Shown: positions 47,296 to 55,883 of the stretch, one piece after another | Numbering within the stretch: the stretch's first letter is position 1 | Layout of the letters: the number at the start of each line of letters is the position of its first letter | DNA from: Rhodanobacter sp. DHB23 | GTDB taxonomy: Bacteria > Pseudomonadota > Gammaproteobacteria > Xanthomonadales > Rhodanobacteraceae | Length of the DNA stretch: 64,000 bases | Assembly: GCF_014842975.1 (NCBI RefSeq) | Contig: NZ_JACYXK010000028.1 | Location: 186,001-250,000 of the forward strand | Reading direction: 5' to 3' | Position numbers and translations under genes: made by a program | Notes under the pieces: model-generated | The model's database searches: none | The model's input: the letters and a program-made list of their open reading frames with translations, nothing else | What the model was told of the DNA's origin: nothing

Positions 47296-47485
47296 CGGCG
47301 GATCATCCTGTCGCAGCGAAGGAGTTGTCCAGCCAAACAGGCGGTCGCGGTCCGGTGATGGCCGTGTTTGCGGATGTCGCAAGCATGAATTGGAGGTTGG
47401 GCCTGGCGCAAGCGCAGCCGTGAAGACATGGTCGCCGTCGAAAGCGTGCACTCGCTCATTTTGCCTGGAAGGGACCTCGGGTGCC

Positions 47486-47690
47486 TCAAGGGGATGCCGC
47501 TTCCGGCTGCTGCTGGGTGACGCAGTGGATCATGCCGCCATTGGCGTAGAGATTCCGCACATCGATGCCCACAACAGAGCGATCGGGAAAAACCTGTTGA
47601 AGGATGACCTTCGCGACGGTGTCGTTCGGGTCGTTATAAGTGGGCATCAGTACAACGTCGTTGCCGACATAGAAGTTCACATACGATCAA
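47486..47690 (-). pseudogene. Carboxy-terminal remnant of agmatine deiminase (aguA)
   Basis: About 65 codons whose product (SYVNFYVGNDVVLMPTYNDP, then VFPDRSVVGIDVRNLYANGG and HCVTQQQPEA) closely matches the end of agmatine deiminase, including the catalytic Cys in HCVTQQ. Homology begins at SYV and is preceded at once by an in-frame stop (TGA), and the first ~300 codons are missing. It is a truncated gene, not a functional one. The break coincides with the start of the AT-richer defence island, so the insertion may have cut it. Confidence 0.75.
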
Positions 47691-47836
47691 CTGACTTGGC
47701 CAATGGGGTGTTTTCGACAAAGCGAACGTGGGGAAAAACCGATTAGCCTGTGTTATCGCTGGTAGGATCAGAGCAATTTGTCACTCGCATATAGCATCTG
47801 GTCAAAGCGCAGGTGTTGTCGCCTCTCGCCTTTACG

Positions 47837-48739
47837 TTAAAAAGCTTCTTTACCCTTACAAGAAGCGCGAAGCGCATCTAGTTCAGCACGGTTCTGAAGG
47901 ATTATCTGACGTCGCGAAGGTGGAAGTAGATCAGTGGAAATATCGAGTCCATAGTGGCGCTCGAAGTACCAGGTCATGCACAGCCGCATCGAGATTCCGA
48001 TGGATCCATCTTCCATCCCGTAGTCCATCTCGATTGCCTGACGCTGGGAGTCCGACAAGTCCGGGTGTGGCGCCAGTCGCATCGTGAACATTTCCTGCCA
48101 TTCGCGATCGACTGCGGGATCGATGGTCGATGGGCGGTGGTTGCCGATCGACAAGATCCTCGCCAACACAAAATCGGTAAACGTCGATCGATTGAAGCAC
48201 CAGCTTCGCGCATGCCAACGGGCGCCGTCATAGACGAGAGCATGTGGAGCGATCCATCGCAGGATGGGCTCTGGCGTAGACATGGACTGGTAGCGGATTT
48301 CGATTGCCCGGCGTTTCCGGATCGCTGATACGACCGGTCGCAGAGTCCCGTTGTCCAGTCGACGTCGAACGCGCGGCATCACCGCATGCGTTGGCATATG
48401 ACCCAGCCAGGACTCGCTCGAATCGATCGCATCATCAGCAAGCAGCAGCAGCTGTGTCAGGTACTGGCGTGCATCGGGCACCGTGACCTTCGGTACGAAC
48501 CGTGGCGTGGCAACAAATGCCTTCTTGACCCGGTCGTACTCCAAGTTCCCCGGTGCCAACTCGAGATATTTCGCGATGTCGTCCGAGGCCTGCGGAGCGG
48601 AAATCCCGAAGCGTGACATCAGGTCGTTCCGAGTCAGCTCTTCTTCCCAGTAGAGCCGGTTCTCGATGAAGGCGTAACGCTGGCGCTGGCTCCAAGTGCG
48701 AGTGGCGAGCGGAGGGCCGGGCTGGGGGGTGTCGGTCAT
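47837..48739 (-). CDS. WYL-domain transcriptional regulator, CapW/BrxR-like
   Basis: 300 residues. An amino-terminal winged helix (WSQRQRYAFIENRLYWEEELTRNDLMSRFGISAPQ contains it) is followed by a WYL domain (RRAIEIRYQSMSTPEPILRWIAPHALVYDGARWHARSWC) and a WCX-like end. CapW and BrxR proteins repress CBASS, BREX and other defence operons until infection. It is transcribed away from the CBASS operon, with a palindrome in the shared 212-base gap. The ATG at 48739 is preferred over the in-frame ATG at 48814, which would overlap the promoter region; neither has a strong ribosome site. Confidence 0.85.
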   Translation of the reverse strand: MTDTPQPGPPLATRTWSQRQRYAFIENRLYWEEELTRNDLMSRFGISAPQASDDIAKYLELAPGNLEYDRVKKAFVATPRFVPKVTVPDARQYLTQLLLLADDAIDSSESWLGHMPTHAVMPRVRRRLDNGTLRPVVSAIRKRRAIEIRYQSMSTPEPILRWIAPHALVYDGARWHARSWCFNRSTFTDFVLARILSIGNHRPSTIDPAVDREWQEMFTMRLAPHPDLSDSQRQAIEMDYGMEDGSIGISMRLCMTWYFERHYGLDISTDLLPPSRRQIILQNRAELDALRASCKGKEAF

Positions 48740-48796
48740 GGAGGGGAGCGGCGAGGGAAAAGAAATAGTATGGCCGAACGAACGAATGAAAGTTTC

Positions 48797-48825
48797 TTGA
48801 CTCTGGTTCAGCATGTTGTTAAGTT
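48797..48825 (+). promoter_or_regulatory. Possible promoter of the CBASS operon
   Basis: TTGACT at 48797-48802 is a good -35 box; with a 17-base spacer the -10 position is TAAGTT at 48820-48825, a weak match. It points toward the DUF2188 gene and overlaps the left arm of the palindrome at 48824-48850, so a bound regulator would block it. Confidence 0.4.
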
Positions 48826-49188: not shown

Positions 49189-50118
49189 ATGAAGAATCCT
49201 GCCTTACAGCTGGTTACGCCCGCGGACCTCCCGCGTGGCATCCATGCTATTCGCGCTCTGCCCGATGCCGAGCTCTCCACACTGTGGGACAGCATCATCG
49301 TCCCCGCCCAGCTCAAGGATCGCCTCCTCTCGCAGGCGCTCTTGAACTACACCCTGCGCCCCAACATCTCGCGCAACGATGTCCCGTTGCACGGGGTCAT
49401 CTTGCTGGTCGGCGTGCCGGGCACAGGCAAGACGTCGCTGGCGAGAGGCCTTGCAAGCAAGCTTGCTGCCTCGCTCAAGCCCTCCGGGCAGACATTCCGT
49501 CTCGTCGAAGTCGACCCGCACGCGCTGACCAGCTCAGCGATGGGTAAGACCCAGCGCGCTGTTTCCGAGCTGTTCTCGCAGACGATCTCGGAGCATGCCG
49601 CCAATGGTCCGACGATAGTGTTGTTGGACGAAGTGGAGACGCTGGCGGCGGATCGCGCGAAGCTTAGCCTGGAGGCCAACCCCGTGGACATCCATCGCGC
49701 CACCGACGCGGTGCTTGTGCAACTAGACGCCCTTGCCGCCTCGCATCCCAACCTGCTCTTCATCGCGACCAGCAACTTCCCGCAGGCGATCGATGACGCT
49801 TTCACCTCGCGCTGCGATCTGGTGATCGATGTCCCGCTTCCGGCGGCCGATGCGGTCGCAAAAATTCTGGATAGTTGTCTGAGCGCAATCGCGCAGAAAT
49901 TCCCCAGGGTCGGCAAGCTCACCCAAGCAGGCGGATTTGCCGATGTGGCGCGGACGGCTGTGGGTCTGGACGGCCGCGCCATTCGTAAGCTTGTCGTTAG
50001 CGCGATGGCAATGCGCAAGGAAACCGCCCTCGACCCCAACCAGCTCTCGCTCTCAGATTTGCAGTCCGCAGTCGCTCAGGTGCAGGCCTCACGTCTTTCC
50101 GGCAAGGGGCATCCATGA
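49189..50118 (+). CDS. TRIP13/Pch2-like AAA+ ATPase of type III CBASS
   Basis: 309 residues. Walker A GVPGTGKTS at residues 75-83, Walker B IVLLDE at 143-148, sensor-1 TSN at 194-196, and an arginine finger in FTSRCD (R208). The context marks it as the TRIP13-type ATPase (Cap6) that remodels HORMA proteins, releasing them from the CD-NTase to switch signalling off. It overlaps the next gene by four bases. Confidence 0.87.
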   Translation: MKNPALQLVTPADLPRGIHAIRALPDAELSTLWDSIIVPAQLKDRLLSQALLNYTLRPNISRNDVPLHGVILLVGVPGTGKTSLARGLASKLAASLKPSGQTFRLVEVDPHALTSSAMGKTQRAVSELFSQTISEHAANGPTIVLLDEVETLAADRAKLSLEANPVDIHRATDAVLVQLDALAASHPNLLFIATSNFPQAIDDAFTSRCDLVIDVPLPAADAVAKILDSCLSAIAQKFPRVGKLTQAGGFADVARTAVGLDGRAIRKLVVSAMAMRKETALDPNQLSLSDLQSAVAQVQASRLSGKGHP

Positions 50119-50588
50119 GCACGGTAGCCCGGCGTGACTTTCGCAGCACGCCACATCGCGATGCTCATCAGACCTGGGCCGACATCGTCGCGCTGCTCAC
50201 CGCAGGTGAGAGCGGTGGGACGGCCAGGCCGGACTTGATGGCTGTTGCCGGCGTGGCCAGCAGCGTGATTGCTGATCAGGGGCCACGGGACGTGCCCATC
50301 GTCGTCACGTGCGATGGGCCGCGCACGCGCATCTACTGTCATTACGACGATGACGCGCTGGACGAATCGAACGGCAACGAAGTTGCGCTGGGGTTCGATC
50401 CGCTGAAGGGCGACTGGCGGGTGTCGCTGCCGGTCGATGCTGAGGATCTGGATTGGGTGACCGCCGCCTTGAAGGCGAAGTCCACGCGAGTCGTGGCTCG
50501 TGACCGAGATGAAACGATCGAAACGTCGACCGCCAGCAGTGCCGTTGCACGTTTTGTCGTGGATGTAGAAGGGTTCATGAAGTCATGA
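50115..50588 (+). CDS. Unrecognised protein in the CBASS operon, possibly a second HORMA-like protein
   Basis: 157 residues with no motif I recognise. It has mixed alpha/beta character: [19 protein letters not shown], then a [17 protein letters not shown] segment and a carboxy end [14 protein letters not shown]. It sits between the ATPase and HORMA genes, overlapping both by four bases (ATGA at each side), so it is made in step with them. Some type III CBASS operons carry two HORMA proteins; this could be a highly divergent second one, or an immunity/adaptor factor. That is inference from position only. Confidence 0.6.
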
Positions 50589-51088
50589 CAACCGTAGCCG
50601 CCTATACCCGCACGCACTCGGTCACCTACGTTGCCGACAACGTGCTCAAAAGCCTCAAGGACATCATCCGCTTGAGCGGAATGGATCCGTCCAAGCTGGT
50701 CGACGATTGGGACAGCACCCACCGTGCCATGCGCACTTGGCTGGACAGCGAACACCTCGAACGCGTCGTCTTAGAGGTATACAACCCCTACACCAATGCT
50801 CTCGTGGTGCGCTGGGATGTCGACATCGTGTACCAGTGGGCAGCAGGCGGCGACGGCAGCTTCTACACCGATACCGAGCAGCTGCGCTACCACATCCGCA
50901 AGGCCGGCATCGCGCCGGCCGATGCCGAGTACAGCATCCTGCTGCAGAACAAGCCGGGACGGCCGGAAGTTCCCGGCTGGAGCCCTGTGAGTTTCCGGTC
51001 GACCAGTGGCCTGGTCCGCCAGAGCTTGGGTTCAACGATCGAGCACAGCGGTCTGGGAGCGAACGCCGCCTATTGGAGGAGCGCCTGA
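50585..51088 (+). CDS. Bacterial HORMA domain protein (HORMA1 type)
   Basis: 167 residues. [32 protein letters not shown] and the following [31 protein letters not shown] match the bacterial HORMA family (bacHORMA_1) of CBASS operons. In type III systems the HORMA protein senses a target peptide, adopts its closed form, binds the CD-NTase and turns on nucleotide synthesis. It overlaps the CD-NTase gene (TGATG). Confidence 0.85.
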
Positions 51089-51993
51089 TGCTCACCATTG
51101 AAGAAGCATTCCGCAAGTTCAAGAGCCGGCTGGAACTCAACGACCGCGAGCAGCAGAACGCGAGCAAGCGGCACACCGAAGTGCGCGAACACATCCGCTC
51201 TCGATTCACGATCGCAGACGATTTCCTCACTGGCTCCTATCGCCGCCATACTAAGACCAAGCCCCTGAAGGACATCGACATCTTCTTCGTTCTGGCCGAC
51301 TCGCAGCGGGCGGAGTATCGAGACAAGGCGCCCAGTGTCGTCCTTCAGGATTTCCATAATGCGCTGGTTGACAAGTACGGCGACGCAGCTGTCAGCAAAC
51401 AGGGGCGTTCGGTGTGCGTCGATTTTGGCGTGGTCGTCGATGCAGACGACAATACCGATTACCGCGTGGTGAGCGTAGACGTGGTACCGGCCTTCACGGC
51501 CGGCAGCGACTACGAGATTCCCAACGTCGACACCGGCAAATGGATGAAGACTAATCCGAAGATCCATGCCGAAAAGGCCACCCAGGCGAACAAGAACTAC
51601 GATGGTGAATGGAAAGGCCTCGTGCGGATGGCCAAGTACTGGAACAACAACCCAGGCCACGGTACGGAAAAGCCGGTCAAGCCGTCGTTCCTAATCGAGG
51701 TTATGGCCCTACAGGTCTTGCACGGCGGCTGGGGCGGACGCTTCGACTACGAAATGCAAGCCTTGTTTTCCACGCTCGCCGATCGGATAACGGACGAATG
51801 GTCAGACCCGGCCGGACTCGGATCGCCGATCAGCAACGGCATGGACGCTGCCCGCAAGCAGCGGGCGCGAGACCTGCTCGTGGCTGCCAGCCAGCAAGCT
51901 TCGGGTGCCATTGATTTGGTTCGCAAGGGTCGGACCGGGGATGCCCTGAAAGCGTGGCGGAATCTGTTCGGACCGAAGTTCCCCTTGACCTGA
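51088..51993 (+). CDS. CD-NTase (cGAS/DncV-like nucleotidyltransferase)
   Basis: 301 residues. GSYRR at residues 49-53 with D62 and D64 (KDIDIFFVL) forms the GS-x(n)-D-x-D metal site, and a third acidic residue is D131 (VSVDVVPAF). This is the enzyme that makes the cyclic di- or trinucleotide second messenger after phage infection. The HORMA-linked CD-NTases of type III CBASS mostly belong to clades C and D; which clade this is cannot be told by eye. It starts within the HORMA stop and lies ten bases before the effector gene. Confidence 0.9.
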
Positions 51994-52003
51994 GGCCGCG
52001 CAG

Positions 52004-52768
52004 ATGACCACAGATACTGATGTTCCGATGACTGCGCTGCAAGCACCATCCGAAGACGTTTCTTGGATGAAGCAAGCGTTCGCACTGGTGCAATCGAACC
52101 TCGCTGCGGCCATGAAGCTAGCCTCCCAGTCCATCAGCCATGGTGGCGTGATGGGCTCAGTAAACGAAGACCACTGGACGGAGCTGTTCCGGAGCTATCT
52201 GCCGAATCGCTACGATGTGGCTACGGGGATCGTGATCGACAGTCGGGGACACCGCAGCGAGCAGATCGACCTCGTGATCTTCGACCGTCATTTCACGCCT
52301 ACCTTGCTCGACCAGAAAAATCATCGCTACATCCCGGCAGAAGCCGTGTATGGGGTATTTGAATGCAAGCCGACGATCAACAAGGACTATCTCCAATACG
52401 CTGAGAAAAAGGCTATGTCGGTCCGCTCAATGCATAGGACCTCGGTGGCGATTGCCCATGCTGGGGGCACCTACCTGCCCAAGCCACACTTTCGCATCGT
52501 CGCTGGGATACTGGCGCCAAGTGTTAGTTGGACTGACGGTCTCGGAGAGGCGTTCGAGCGCAACCTTTCGGGGGATCCCGACGCCATGCTCGATTGCGGC
52601 GTCGCACTCGATCAAGGCTGCTTTGATCGACACGAAGGTGTTCTTTCGATTGCGAACGAACAAGGGGCGCTAATGTATTTCCTGTTTCGACTACTTGCGC
52701 GCCTGCAGTCACTGGGAACCGTCCCCGCGATTGACTGGACGGCTTACAGCCGCATCATCCGACCTTGA
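52004..52768 (+). CDS. DUF6602-like protein, predicted PD-(D/E)XK nuclease effector
   Basis: 254 residues. The middle part reads as a restriction-nuclease-type fold: E60 (DHWTELFRSYLPNRY), D89 in EQIDLVIFD, and E120-x-K122 in YGVFECKPTI, i.e. the E...D...ExK arrangement. The family resembles DUF6602. The carboxy ~100 residues (after DYLQYAEKKA) have no known motif and could be the messenger-binding part. As the last gene, ten bases after the CD-NTase, it occupies the usual effector slot of CBASS, where a cyclic nucleotide switches on a killing enzyme. It replaces the NucC nuclease commonly found in type III systems. Confidence 0.75.
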   Translation: MTTDTDVPMTALQAPSEDVSWMKQAFALVQSNLAAAMKLASQSISHGGVMGSVNEDHWTELFRSYLPNRYDVATGIVIDSRGHRSEQIDLVIFDRHFTPTLLDQKNHRYIPAEAVYGVFECKPTINKDYLQYAEKKAMSVRSMHRTSVAIAHAGGTYLPKPHFRIVAGILAPSVSWTDGLGEAFERNLSGDPDAMLDCGVALDQGCFDRHEGVLSIANEQGALMYFLFRLLARLQSLGTVPAIDWTAYSRIIRP

Positions 52769-52903: not shown

Positions 52904-53989
52904 CTAATCCTCAAGCAAACGTGCCGCAGGATTGCTGGCAGCTCCACCTGTCTGAAAATACCCCATCACGCTGGCCACCGCGCGGTGCTCGGTCATCGCC
53001 ATGATGGCCGGTAGCGCCACGCCCTGACGGCTCGCTTCGGTTACGAATCCCGACCGCAGGCTGTGCCCGCCAAAGTCCCCTTCCAGGCCCGCGAGCCTCG
53101 CCCGGCGCTGCACGATCTCGCCCACCGCGGCCGGCGATAGGGCAGGGCCGACCCGGTGTTTCCACAGCCGCCGAAATATCGCCCCTTCGGAAATCTCGCT
53201 GGCGGCCAGCCACGCCTCAAGCGCTTGAGCCGCCCGATCGAGAATGGGTTTGTCCGGTGTCGAGGACGCGGTAACACCGGACTGCTGGGTCTTGCTGTGT
53301 TCCAGGCGATAGATGTAGCCCTGTGGGCCGATCCGGCGCAGATCGCGCAGATCGGCCGCCGCGATCTCGCTGCGCCGGCGCCCGCCGCTGGCGAAACCGA
53401 AGCAGAGCAGGGCGCGGTCGCGCAGGCCTTCCAGGCTGTCGTCGCAGGTAGTCAGCATCGCCTCGAGCTCGGCCAAGGTAATGGCGGTTTTCTTACGCGG
53501 CCGTACGCCGCGTTTCACGGCTGCTCGGGCGGCACGGCTCAGCACCGTGCGAATCGCCGGTTGCTCGCACGGGTTCGGCAGCTGCTTGAGTCGGTGCGCG
53601 GTCGACAGTACCGCGACGCGATGGCGTACCGTCGCCAGTGTCCACGGGCCGGGCTTGGCCTTGAGTTCGGCGGCCACCAGCGTCCGGTCCACGGCGGGCG
53701 GCAGCTCCCAGGCCAGTTCGCCTTCGGCCGAACGACGTAGGACGTGATCAACCACGAACTGCAGCACCGTGGCCTCCGGTACTGGCAGGGAGAACTCCAC
53801 GCCGTAGCGCGCCGCGTGCCAGCCGGCCCAGTAGCGCAGGGCGCTGGCGTAGCTGCGCGTGGTGTTGGCGGCGGCGGCTTCCGCCAGCAGTTCACGCACG
53901 GCATCGGCGGCCTGCTGCGCCAGCTGAATCGGCAGCATTAGGCTGGAGGCCGACTGGGCGAGGGTCGGAATCATGGAATTATCTTTCAT
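52904..53989 (-). CDS. Tyrosine recombinase (TnpS-like)
   Basis: 361 residues (or 356 from an ATG at 53974). The four core residues fit the tyrosine recombinase family: R205 in GRRRSE, H309 and R312 in GHSLRSGF, and H335 with Y344 nine residues later (HRAVASVMGYF). The amino domain (ANTTRSYASALRYWAGWHAA) is the SAM-like core-binding region. It is divergent from a KfrA/TnpT-like gene, the arrangement of tnpS and tnpT, the cointegrate-resolution genes of Tn4651-type Tn3-family transposons. No transposase gene is in the window, so it may serve an island-specific site instead. Confidence 0.85.
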   Translation of the reverse strand: MKDNSMIPTLAQSASSLMLPIQLAQQAADAVRELLAEAAAANTTRSYASALRYWAGWHAARYGVEFSLPVPEATVLQFVVDHVLRRSAEGELAWELPPAVDRTLVAAELKAKPGPWTLATVRHRVAVLSTAHRLKQLPNPCEQPAIRTVLSRAARAAVKRGVRPRKKTAITLAELEAMLTTCDDSLEGLRDRALLCFGFASGGRRRSEIAAADLRDLRRIGPQGYIYRLEHSKTQQSGVTASSTPDKPILDRAAQALEAWLAASEISEGAIFRRLWKHRVGPALSPAAVGEIVQRRARLAGLEGDFGGHSLRSGFVTEASRQGVALPAIMAMTEHRAVASVMGYFQTGGAASNPAARLLED

Positions 53990-54012
53990 ATTATGTAATG
54001 TATACTACGAAA
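53984..54012. other. Candidate recombination core site between recombinase and KfrA genes
   Basis: Imperfect palindrome of 12-base arms, TTTCATATTATG and TATACTACGAAA, around a five-base centre; nine of twelve arm positions pair. This is the size of a dif- or rst-type site for a tyrosine recombinase. It overlaps the longest recombinase start and is strikingly AT-rich. A related palindrome is at 55850-55875, sharing TAATGTATA[CT]TA[CT]G in the same direction. Confidence 0.55.
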
Positions 54013-54093
54013 TAGGGCATCTAGCCACGATAATCATCACTTATCGTGAGTACGAAACCAAGCGGGCAGGGCGCCGATCGAGGAGACCGAGGC

Positions 54094-54978
54094 ATGGCAC
54101 GCGGCATCACGCAGGACCAGGTCAACACCGCCGCCGACGCCCTCCTGGGCGCCGGCGAGAATCCGACCGTGGAAAAAGTGCGCGCCGCCCTCGGCACCGG
54201 CTCGCCGAACACCGTCACGCGCATGCTCGACACGTGGCGCAGCGGCTTGGCCGAGCGCCTGTGCAAAACGCTGCAACTGCCCGATCTTCCGCCGGAGGTG
54301 GGGCAGGCGATGACCACACTATGGCAGCTGGCCGTGGGACACGCGGAAGGCCTGCTCCAGACGCGACTGGCCGCGGAGCGAGCCGCCCTGACCGCGAACG
54401 AAACGCGGCTCGTCGAGGAACGCACGCGCTGGGCGGCGACGCTGGCCGAGGCCGAGACCGCCGTGGCCCAAGCGCAGACACGCCAGGCCCTGGCCGAGCA
54501 CGCCTGCGCCAACCTGGACGGCCAGCTCCGCGACAGCCACGCCCTGCGGGAGGATTTGATCCAGCAGCGGGATCGGTTGCAGGCGGTGGTTGATCGCGTC
54601 ACCCACGAGCTCGAGGCCCTCCAGGCCGACAAGACCGCCCGGCTCGCCGCGGCGGACCAGGAACGGGAGCGCACCGCGGCGCACCTGCGCGCCGTCGAAG
54701 ACCGCGCCCATCAGGAAATTGACCGCGCCCGACAAGAGACCAAACAGTGGCAGCACCGCCACGAAGCGGCCGAACGGAGCTATCGTGACGGGGGGCAGGC
54801 GCTTGAAGCGCGGTGCGAAGCATTGCAAAAGCAGTGGCAGCAGGCCGAGAAGGAGGTCGCGCGTCTCTCGGGGCACGTCGCGGCGCTTGAAACGTCGCTC
54901 GCCAAGGCCAGTGTCCGCCCGAAGGCTAAGGAGGCGCGGAGGTCGGCCAAGTCTTCGAAGACCGCCAAGGCCAAGTAA
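54094..54978 (+). CDS. KfrA/TnpT-like DNA-binding coiled-coil protein
   Basis: 294 residues. The amino-terminal ~50 are a KfrA-type DNA-binding domain (GITQDQVNTAADALLGAGEN and GTGSPNTVTRMLDTW), the rest is a long coiled coil rich in Ala, Glu, Gln and Arg, ending in a Lys-rich tail. KfrA and TnpT proteins bind DNA near replication or recombination sites; TnpT helps TnpS in resolution. The ATG at 54094 has GAGGAG nearby; a GTG at 54046 is possible but would reach the recombination-like site. Divergent from the recombinase. Confidence 0.83.
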   Translation: MARGITQDQVNTAADALLGAGENPTVEKVRAALGTGSPNTVTRMLDTWRSGLAERLCKTLQLPDLPPEVGQAMTTLWQLAVGHAEGLLQTRLAAERAALTANETRLVEERTRWAATLAEAETAVAQAQTRQALAEHACANLDGQLRDSHALREDLIQQRDRLQAVVDRVTHELEALQADKTARLAAADQERERTAAHLRAVEDRAHQEIDRARQETKQWQHRHEAAERSYRDGGQALEARCEALQKQWQQAEKEVARLSGHVAALETSLAKASVRPKAKEARRSAKSSKTAKAK

Positions 54979-55026
54979 CGGACGTGAGGATCATCCAAGA
55001 TCATGGACTACCCTGAGGAGCATCCC

Positions 55027-55521
55027 ATGGCGCCGCCCGCGCTTGAGGCGATCGCCGCGCGGCTCGCCGGAGGCTTCATCCACCGACTGACGCCTTTGCT
55101 AGGGAGGCCGGCACGCGTCATTTGTCCCTCGGACGAGGCGGAGCAGGCGCTTATCGTTTCGATGACGCAAGCTGCAGACGCGCAGGGGATGGCTTCGGAG
55201 GTCATCGACTTGCGGCCGGCGCCTGCCGAGCGATTGGACGCCATTACAGCACGACTGGACGGCTGGCAAAGCGGTGCGGCCAATAGCAATGACCAAACGG
55301 CGCAACGACTGCTGATCTTGCTTGGGTTCGACGCCTTCGGCGACGACACACAGGATGCGCCAACGTACCCGTTCCGATCCAAGTTTCAATTCGACCAGAA
55401 ATTCCTATGGCTGTTCGTTGGTCGCGACGCCTCCCGCATGCGGTTCCTGTTCGAAAGCTACCGGCGTCCTCTGTATCGCGCAGCAGGCGATATCACCCCT
55501 GACGACTGGAAACGCAGTTGA
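55027..55521 (+). CDS. Hypothetical protein of the mobile module
   Basis: 164 residues; I do not recognise the family. It looks like a globular cytoplasmic protein: AIAARLAGGFIHRLTPLLGR, a central LLILLGFDAFGDDTQ segment that could be a beta strand with acidic residues, and a C-terminal FLFESYRRPLYRA. The start at 55027 is preferred as GAGGAG lies six bases upstream; an ATG at 55003 is also possible. It follows the KfrA-like gene by 48 bases and may be co-transcribed. Confidence 0.6.
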   Translation: MAPPALEAIAARLAGGFIHRLTPLLGRPARVICPSDEAEQALIVSMTQAADAQGMASEVIDLRPAPAERLDAITARLDGWQSGAANSNDQTAQRLLILLGFDAFGDDTQDAPTYPFRSKFQFDQKFLWLFVGRDASRMRFLFESYRRPLYRAAGDITPDDWKRS

Positions 55522-55530
55522 TCCTCGTTT

Positions 55531-55541
55531 TTCCTGTTGCT
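55531..55541. repeat. Short direct repeat, right copy (TTCCTGTTGCT)
   Basis: Identical to 52891-52901 and ten bases past the hypothetical gene's stop. The two copies bracket the recombinase module and might be a target duplication or old junctions. Confidence 0.4.
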
Positions 55542-55579
55542 CAAGTGAGTTGGCAGTCTGCGCCTCTGGCCTAACTTTC

Positions 55580-55781
55580 GGCGGCAGTTTGTTGGCCCAA
55601 AAGTGCGGCAGTTAGTCGGCAGGCAGGTGTCGGCCGTTGGCGCTTGAACCATCAATTTCGCGGCGGTTTCTCGGGGTCGACGGTGAGAACGGGGCTGGTT
55701 GTTGGCCAATATCCGCCTCGGCGGTACCTTGTTGGCGGCTAGGAGGCGGTTTCTTCGGCTTGGCGGTGGCAGTTCGTTGTC
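55580..55781. repeat. Degenerate 17-base repeats (GGCGGCAGTTTGTTGGC type)
   Basis: About six imperfect copies in the 362-base gap before tadA: GGCGGCAGTTTGTTGGC at 55580-55596, TGCGGCAGTTAGTCGGC at 55604-55620, GCGGCGGTTTCTCGGG at 55660-55675, GGCGGTACCTTGTTGGC at 55720-55736, GGCGGTTTCTTCGGC at 55745-55759 and GTGGCAGTTCGTTGTC at 55766-55781. Spacing is irregular, so they are not a CRISPR array. They could be protein-binding iterons for the KfrA-like protein, or remnants of copies of a small mobile sequence. The gap holds no other gene I can support. Confidence 0.5.
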
Positions 55782-55849
55782 CTTAGACAACGTGCAACAA
55801 CAACCGGCCACGGGAGCGGCTCCGGCGGCCTCATCGGGCACCTTCGCCA

Positions 55850-55875
55850 TTTCGCATAATGTATATTATGTAAAA
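55850..55875. other. Palindrome at the right end of the island, beside tadA
   Basis: TTTCGCATAAT and ATTATGTAAAA arms around GTAT; nine of eleven arm positions pair. It is eight bases from the tadA stop codon. Its core TAATGTATATTATG differs from that at 53996-54009 in only two bases and lies in the same direction, so it is a candidate partner site for the recombinase and a likely island end. Confidence 0.5.
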
Positions 55876-55883
55876 TTACAGAA

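Follow-up and report, generated by a model that had tools for sequence, protein, structure and literature searches.

A defence-carrying island beside the chromosomal dif site in Rhodanobacter and its relatives, probably derived from a TniABQ-type transposon

Two palindromes of about the size of a dif site, with a common 14-bp core, are found at 53984-54012 and 55850-55875 of the window (the whole stretch of 64,000 nucleotides analysed here, from Rhodanobacter sp. DHB23, contig NZ_JACYXK010000028.1). The question is whether they are paired sites of the recombinase encoded next to the first of them, as the preliminary description proposed, or sites of different origin. The palindromes themselves are real: their coordinates, the numbers of paired arm positions (9 of 12 and 9 of 11) and the shared core were all reproduced, and each is unique in the 64 kb at its pairing grade and at a GC content of at most 36%. 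In a window scan that allowed up to 3 mismatches, the core TAATGTATAYTAYG has exact matches at 53996 and 55857; the only other hits are 52671 (3 mismatches) and the reverse-strand self-match of the second palindrome. An additional palindrome, overlooked in the earlier description, lies beside kfrA at 54026-54048 and reads CACGATAATCATCACTTATCGTG. The right part of the island and the adjoining chromosome contain the following features.

52904..53989, minus strand: TnpS-like tyrosine recombinase, 361 aa (PF00589, E=1.6e-14; 28% identity to TnpS of Tn4651, E=3e-19)
53984..54012, unstranded: core palindrome of an rst-type resolution site, the putative crossover site of the recombinase (conserved at the recombinase start in close homologues; arms in common with Tn4651)
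54026..54048, unstranded: accessory palindrome of the rst-type site, 8 of 9 pairs, probably bound by the KfrA/TnpT-like protein
54094..54978, plus strand: KfrA/TnpT-like DNA-binding protein, 294 aa (PF11740, E=1.8e-23; the same domain occurs in TnpT of Tn4651)
55003..55521, plus strand: hypothetical protein, detected by tblastn in a few close relatives (G008, G009, G070; a fragment in G014), with no match in Pfam or NCBIfam
55579..55782, unstranded: array of 7 repeat units at the transposon right end, resembling TniA binding sites and presumably bound as such (repeat finder and weight-matrix scan)
55786..55789, unstranded: right terminus GACA (inward, TGTC), at a distance of 59 bp from dif (terminus scan with shuffled flanks as control)
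55849..55876, plus strand: chromosomal dif site, 28 bp, with the XerC arm on the left and the XerD arm on the right

By sequence match, copy number and GC-skew position, 55849-55876 is the host's chromosome-dimer-resolution site dif. Carnoy and Roten print the Xanthomonas campestris dif as TCCTGACATAATATACATTATGCGAAAT (PMC2731167); read on the reverse strand, the final 23 bases of the window's site are identical to it. The site occurs once in the genome of the window in a search allowing up to 3 mismatches, and the maximum of the cumulative GC skew, computed over 400 kb of the contig, is 13.5 kb away, which places dif near the replication terminus. It was found in 14 of 15 genomes of the genus, in carriers and non-carriers of the island alike. 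The palindrome at 55850 is dif, and relatives without the island have it too; this is one half of what the preliminary description had itself said would refute its view, the other half being a lack of recombination and protein binding at both sites. The proximity to tadA is not a product of the island, because G052, with no related island nearer to dif than 10 kb, has dif about 1.1 kb from tadA.

The first palindrome is of another kind. We infer that the palindrome at 53984-54012 forms the core of an rst-type site, with a TnpS-like recombinase gene on one side and a divergent KfrA/TnpT-like gene on the other, and in this the earlier description, which had placed it at the rst position, was right. 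In the published rst layout, TnpS has a core and TnpT an accessory site (PMC4619425); the window has the divergent tyrosine recombinase and TnpT-like helper with a core and an accessory palindrome between them. The tnpS-tnpT intergenic region of Tn4651 (pWW0) contains ..TATGTAATCTACTACGAAAT.., similar to the arms of the window core. In an alignment of the recombinase/kfrA intergenic region across 35 loci, the close homologues have ..TTCATAATATGTAATGTATACTACGAAATAG as the core at the recombinase start and GATAATCATCACTTATC as the palindrome near kfrA; the latter (54026-54048 in the window) is more conserved than the core at 53984.

The module is tightly linked to dif. Of the 32 genomes that have the recombinase and dif on the same contig, 28 have the two no more than 20 kb apart, and in all 28 dif is on the kfrA side; the count is confined to genomes in which both were found on one contig, because the dif of six genomes was missed by the pattern and may be divergent. 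A separate search of named records (Rhodanobacter, Dyella, Luteibacter, Xanthomonas, Pseudoxanthomonas, Thermomonas, Lysobacter and Luteimonas; the set partly overlaps the first one) placed the recombinase within 10 kb of dif in 20 of 27, with dif on the kfrA side in 20 of 20. In the recombinase tree there are 8 switches between the XerC-arm and XerD-arm sides of dif, of which well-supported branches force at least 5, and in three genomes kfrA genes flank dif on both sides, each facing dif. The switches and the two-sided arrangement indicate that the linkage is due to repeated end-specific insertion and not to a single inherited event.

The same linkage and its fixed polarity are what one would expect if the recombinase and the KfrA-like protein were resident host genes working with dif in dimer resolution or terminus organisation, and the 83-93% identity of the recombinase across several genera (named-record search) suits such a role. 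We nevertheless regard it as very improbable: the recombinase was detected in just 47 of 198 relatives and the module is often broken; it stands on either side of dif with repeated switches; the neighbouring cargo differs between genomes; and the module also occurs on a plasmid and is bordered by transposon-like ends.

Three observations on the distribution of such modules can be added. The conjugative plasmid pLMG930.2 of Xanthomonas euvesicatoria (NZ_CP018463.1; L165:12300-16086) carries a recombinase 88% identical to that of the window, a KfrA-like gene, an intergenic region of the rst type and a repeat array like that of the window; no dif was seen in its vicinity. In G001 (L038:6391-8705) it is another tyrosine recombinase that faces dif, likewise in divergent arrangement with a gene of the KfrA family, and repeat arrays flank dif on both sides; a comparison of this array with plasmids gave no match. 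In G014 (L107:8404-12100) a half-dif adjoins a broken recombinase/kfrA module; assuming a circular contig, the intact dif is about 49 kb away, perhaps with another, later element inserted at dif in between.

What is inserted can be judged from its ends. In the window and in relatives, iterated repeats between kfrA and dif terminate in GACA, which is TGTC in the inward direction. According to Benler et al. (PMC8649781), Tn7, Tn5090, Tn5053 and Tn552 carry such arrays, with repeats of roughly 20 bp, at their ends. By the automated terminus scan, 8 loci have ends at distances of 28-59 bp from dif, above the level of shuffled flanks; with 9 further termini, picked by eye and measured, the overall range is 9-67 bp. 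The distance thus varies, and in many loci the end arrays are decayed or unrecognised. On the other side, homology with two congeners ends, at 47437 for G005 and at 47435 for G008, so that the left edge of the island is near 47437:

47437..47836, unstranded: left edge of the island, without a recognisable transposon end (homology breaks)

Inverted BLAST, the weight matrix and the homology break revealed no left end in the window.

The transposition genes are found in relatives. The tniA-tniB-tniQ operon is located at the far end of the island in G019, G033 and G042 and partially in G061; in a search for TniQ, these four genomes gave short TniQ genes at about 10-25 kb from dif, and they have close TniA relatives at 11-40 kb from it. 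More distant TniA relatives occur 14-81 kb from dif in G053, G035, G129, G131 and G120. By domain assignment, TniA of the relatives has a Mu_C domain, and an rve domain too in two of the three tested. Apart from the recombinase and kfrA, no transposase common to the 20-kb loci is apparent, since the tniABQ genes are further away. The two ends of the element in G019 match each other in inverted orientation over 26 bp at 85%, which gives an element of about 23 kb. Seven bp past its left end another insertion follows in tandem, with its own right end and kfrA; the flanks in G019 show no matching 5-bp target-site duplication, the second insertion abutting the left end. No target-site duplication was readable in the islands, and a search for left ends in G033, G042 and G061 found none, so that paired ends are seen in G019 only. 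An interpretation of the repeat arrays as IS21-type ends was considered and dropped as the TniABQ operons and the paired end of G019 came to light.

We believe that these data are best read as recurrent insertion, a few dozen bases or less from dif, of what appears to be a defence-carrying transposon family in Rhodanobacter and relatives. That this is a TniABQ (Tn5053/Tn7-like) family which inserts beside dif and uses a TnpS/TnpT-type resolvase, the window being the right end of a derivative, we consider quite probable. The transposon derivative would have inserted beside dif, which would serve as a target landmark and be left intact. The palindrome at 53984 would be the core at which crossover takes place in the resolution site (rst) belonging to the transposon itself, on which the TnpS-like recombinase would act with the KfrA/TnpT-like helper bound at 54026-54048. 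We presume that the recombinase resolves cointegrates from TnsA-less replicative transposition, both the replicative mode and the resolution being suppositions. TniQ/TniB might, by analogy, sense dif, perhaps with XerCD bound. The genes behind the recombinase would be cargo, in this case a type III CBASS.

The features read from the sequence here are the identity of dif, the rst layout, the likeness to Tn4651, the arrays close to dif, the fixed end-to-dif polarity on both sides, the far-end tniABQ of relatives, the one paired end and the defence cargo. Counting against this explanation are the window copy without tniABQ or a left end, the paired ends in G019 alone, the lack of a readable target-site duplication, the many decayed or unrecognised end arrays, the variable distance to dif and the plasmid copy without dif. 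With tniABQ and the left end missing, the window copy presumably cannot move on its own; as its genome also lacks TniQ and any close TniA, it should be a remnant or need help in trans.

Mobile DNA at dif is known from IMEX, and the island could have been integrated into dif by the host XerCD through a dif mimic of its own, as filamentous phages are. In G009 and G053, inserts at dif do have partial dif repeats on their flanks. At its far end, however, the island of the window has neither a second dif nor a half-dif; dif is whole, with the terminus 59 bp away; and the polarity of the element towards dif is fixed while that of dif is not. IMEX enter dif itself by means of a dif mimic (PMC9765430), whereas the present islands stand beside a dif left whole. 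This possibility, which we regard as very improbable, slightly more so than a resident host function, was rejected on the absence of a second dif from the far end in the window.

The two inserts mentioned are worth describing. In G009 (Rhodanobacter sp. DHG33; L046:10001-11690) a 1.6-kb insert at dif, between dif and tadA, is flanked by the partial dif repeat TATACATTATGCGAAAT and looks like a remnant of a filamentous phage or of another XerCD-dependent element. In G053 (Dyella subtropica; L082:4587-12108) the recombinase/kfrA island is separated from dif by an insert of 7.4 kb, which has dif on one side, a half-dif on the other and a flanking repeat of 47 bp, and which looks like an element integrated at dif.

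There remains the original proposal, that the two palindromes are paired recombinase sites which recombine to excise kfrA and the hypothetical gene. The common core, the direct orientation in the window and the intact recombinase gene are in its favour. The statement that the sites have the same direction holds for the window and fails as a rule, since among the 28 genomes with the recombinase up to 20 kb from dif, dif is oriented as here in 13 and oppositely in 15. The core spacer is TGTATA in the window and GTTTTA, TTTTTA or GAAATA in other loci; the dif spacers in those same genomes are TGCATA, TGCTTA or TGTCTA. Core and dif spacers vary independently, as is expected of unrelated sites. No rejoined core-dif product was seen among the loci examined. 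Excision would also take away kfrA, the likely partner of the recombinase. As the spacers vary independently and the module stands on either side of a dif that exists without the island, excision between the palindromes is not supported by the spacer, orientation and empty-site evidence, on which we reject it, and we consider the paired-site proposal the least probable of all. The likeness of the palindromes is best read as that of two Xer-like recombinase sites with similar AT-rich arms.

The preferred reading, a TniABQ-type transposon derivative beside dif, can be compared with known systems. Among the closest is the "res site hunter" family Tn5053/Tn402 (tniABQ-res-tniR), which likewise has tniA, tniB and tniQ without TnsA, end-repeat arrays and TGT/ACA-type termini, and which targets a site-specific recombination site with a fixed end towards the target and a separate resolvase (PMC11406308, PMC7765201). 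Relatives of Tn5053 target res sites, presumably via TniQ (PMC11406308), and insert in the res region of IncP plasmids with a fixed end toward parA (PMC7765201). There the target is a plasmid or transposon res, whereas the present islands use the chromosomal dif; the resolvase is the serine resolvase TniR instead of a TnpS/TnpT-type pair; and the cargo is mer or integrons, in contrast to the anti-phage defence often found here. The Tn7-like elements with defence cargo of Benler et al. (2021) share the arrays of about 20-bp transposase sites, a predicted tyrosine resolvase and defence cargo; dif is nowhere in the text of that paper (PMC8649781). A tyrosine resolvase is predicted for TnsA-less Tn7-like branches (PMC8649781), so the recombinase/KfrA/rst module fits the role of a resolvase. 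Tn4651 and TnXax1 of the Tn3 family resemble the module in the divergent tyrosine recombinase and KfrA_N-domain helper, the core and accessory palindromes and the similar core arms. Their core adjoins the helper gene, while in the window it is at the recombinase start, and they have a Tn3 transposase, whereas the module described here travels with TniABQ-type islands.

It is tempting to go further and to regard the islands as "dif hunters", a TniABQ lineage whose target selector recognises XerCD-bound dif, on either side and in tandem; arguing by analogy, we find the chances of this evenly balanced. Defence islands would then be delivered to the terminus, much as res hunters sense resolvase-bound res on plasmids. 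A literature search, mostly outside subscription papers, found no report of dif as a target of Tn7- or Tn5053-type elements. If the insertion beside dif is as we describe it, a nearly universal non-coding chromosomal landmark joins the known targets of Tn7/Tn5053-like elements, and a natural example is at hand of a transposition targeting complex that reads a Xer recombination site. The build-up of various anti-phage systems next to dif in these bacteria would also become easier to understand.

The cargo of the window is a complete type III CBASS, with the CD-NTase, HORMA, TRIP13 and effector genes together:

47837..48814, minus strand: WYL-domain regulator (PF13280), probably a CBASS regulator of the CapW type
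49189..50118, plus strand: TRIP13-like ATPase of type III CBASS (PADLOC TRIP13, E=1.3e-137)
50115..50588, plus strand: CBASS HORMA protein (PADLOC HORMA, E=8e-67)
50585..51088, plus strand: second CBASS HORMA protein (PF18173, E=7.9e-86)
51082..51993, plus strand: CD-NTase, cyclic oligonucleotide synthase (PADLOC cyclase, E=3.6e-144)
52004..52768, plus strand: NucC-type nuclease effector (PADLOC NucC effector, E=2.9e-91)

The genes behind the recombinase vary by genome, type III CBASS being present in the window and in G130. Elsewhere we found Gabija (L084 and L085), Lamassu LmuB (L087), Dsr1 (L045), PD-Lambda-2 (L097), E1/E2 or JAB genes (L089, L102 and L046), a HamB-like helicase (L101) and a NERD/helicase gene (L102); several sampled cargo genes had no defence match. 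Judging from these matches, the cargo is often anti-phage defence, though perhaps not in every gene.

In G130 (L117:3834-10921), genes for a TnsA-TnsB fusion, a TnsC-like protein and TniQ, together with a coiled-coil protein, stand directly before the recombinase and a second type III CBASS; this is a different transposition module combined with the same recombinase family.
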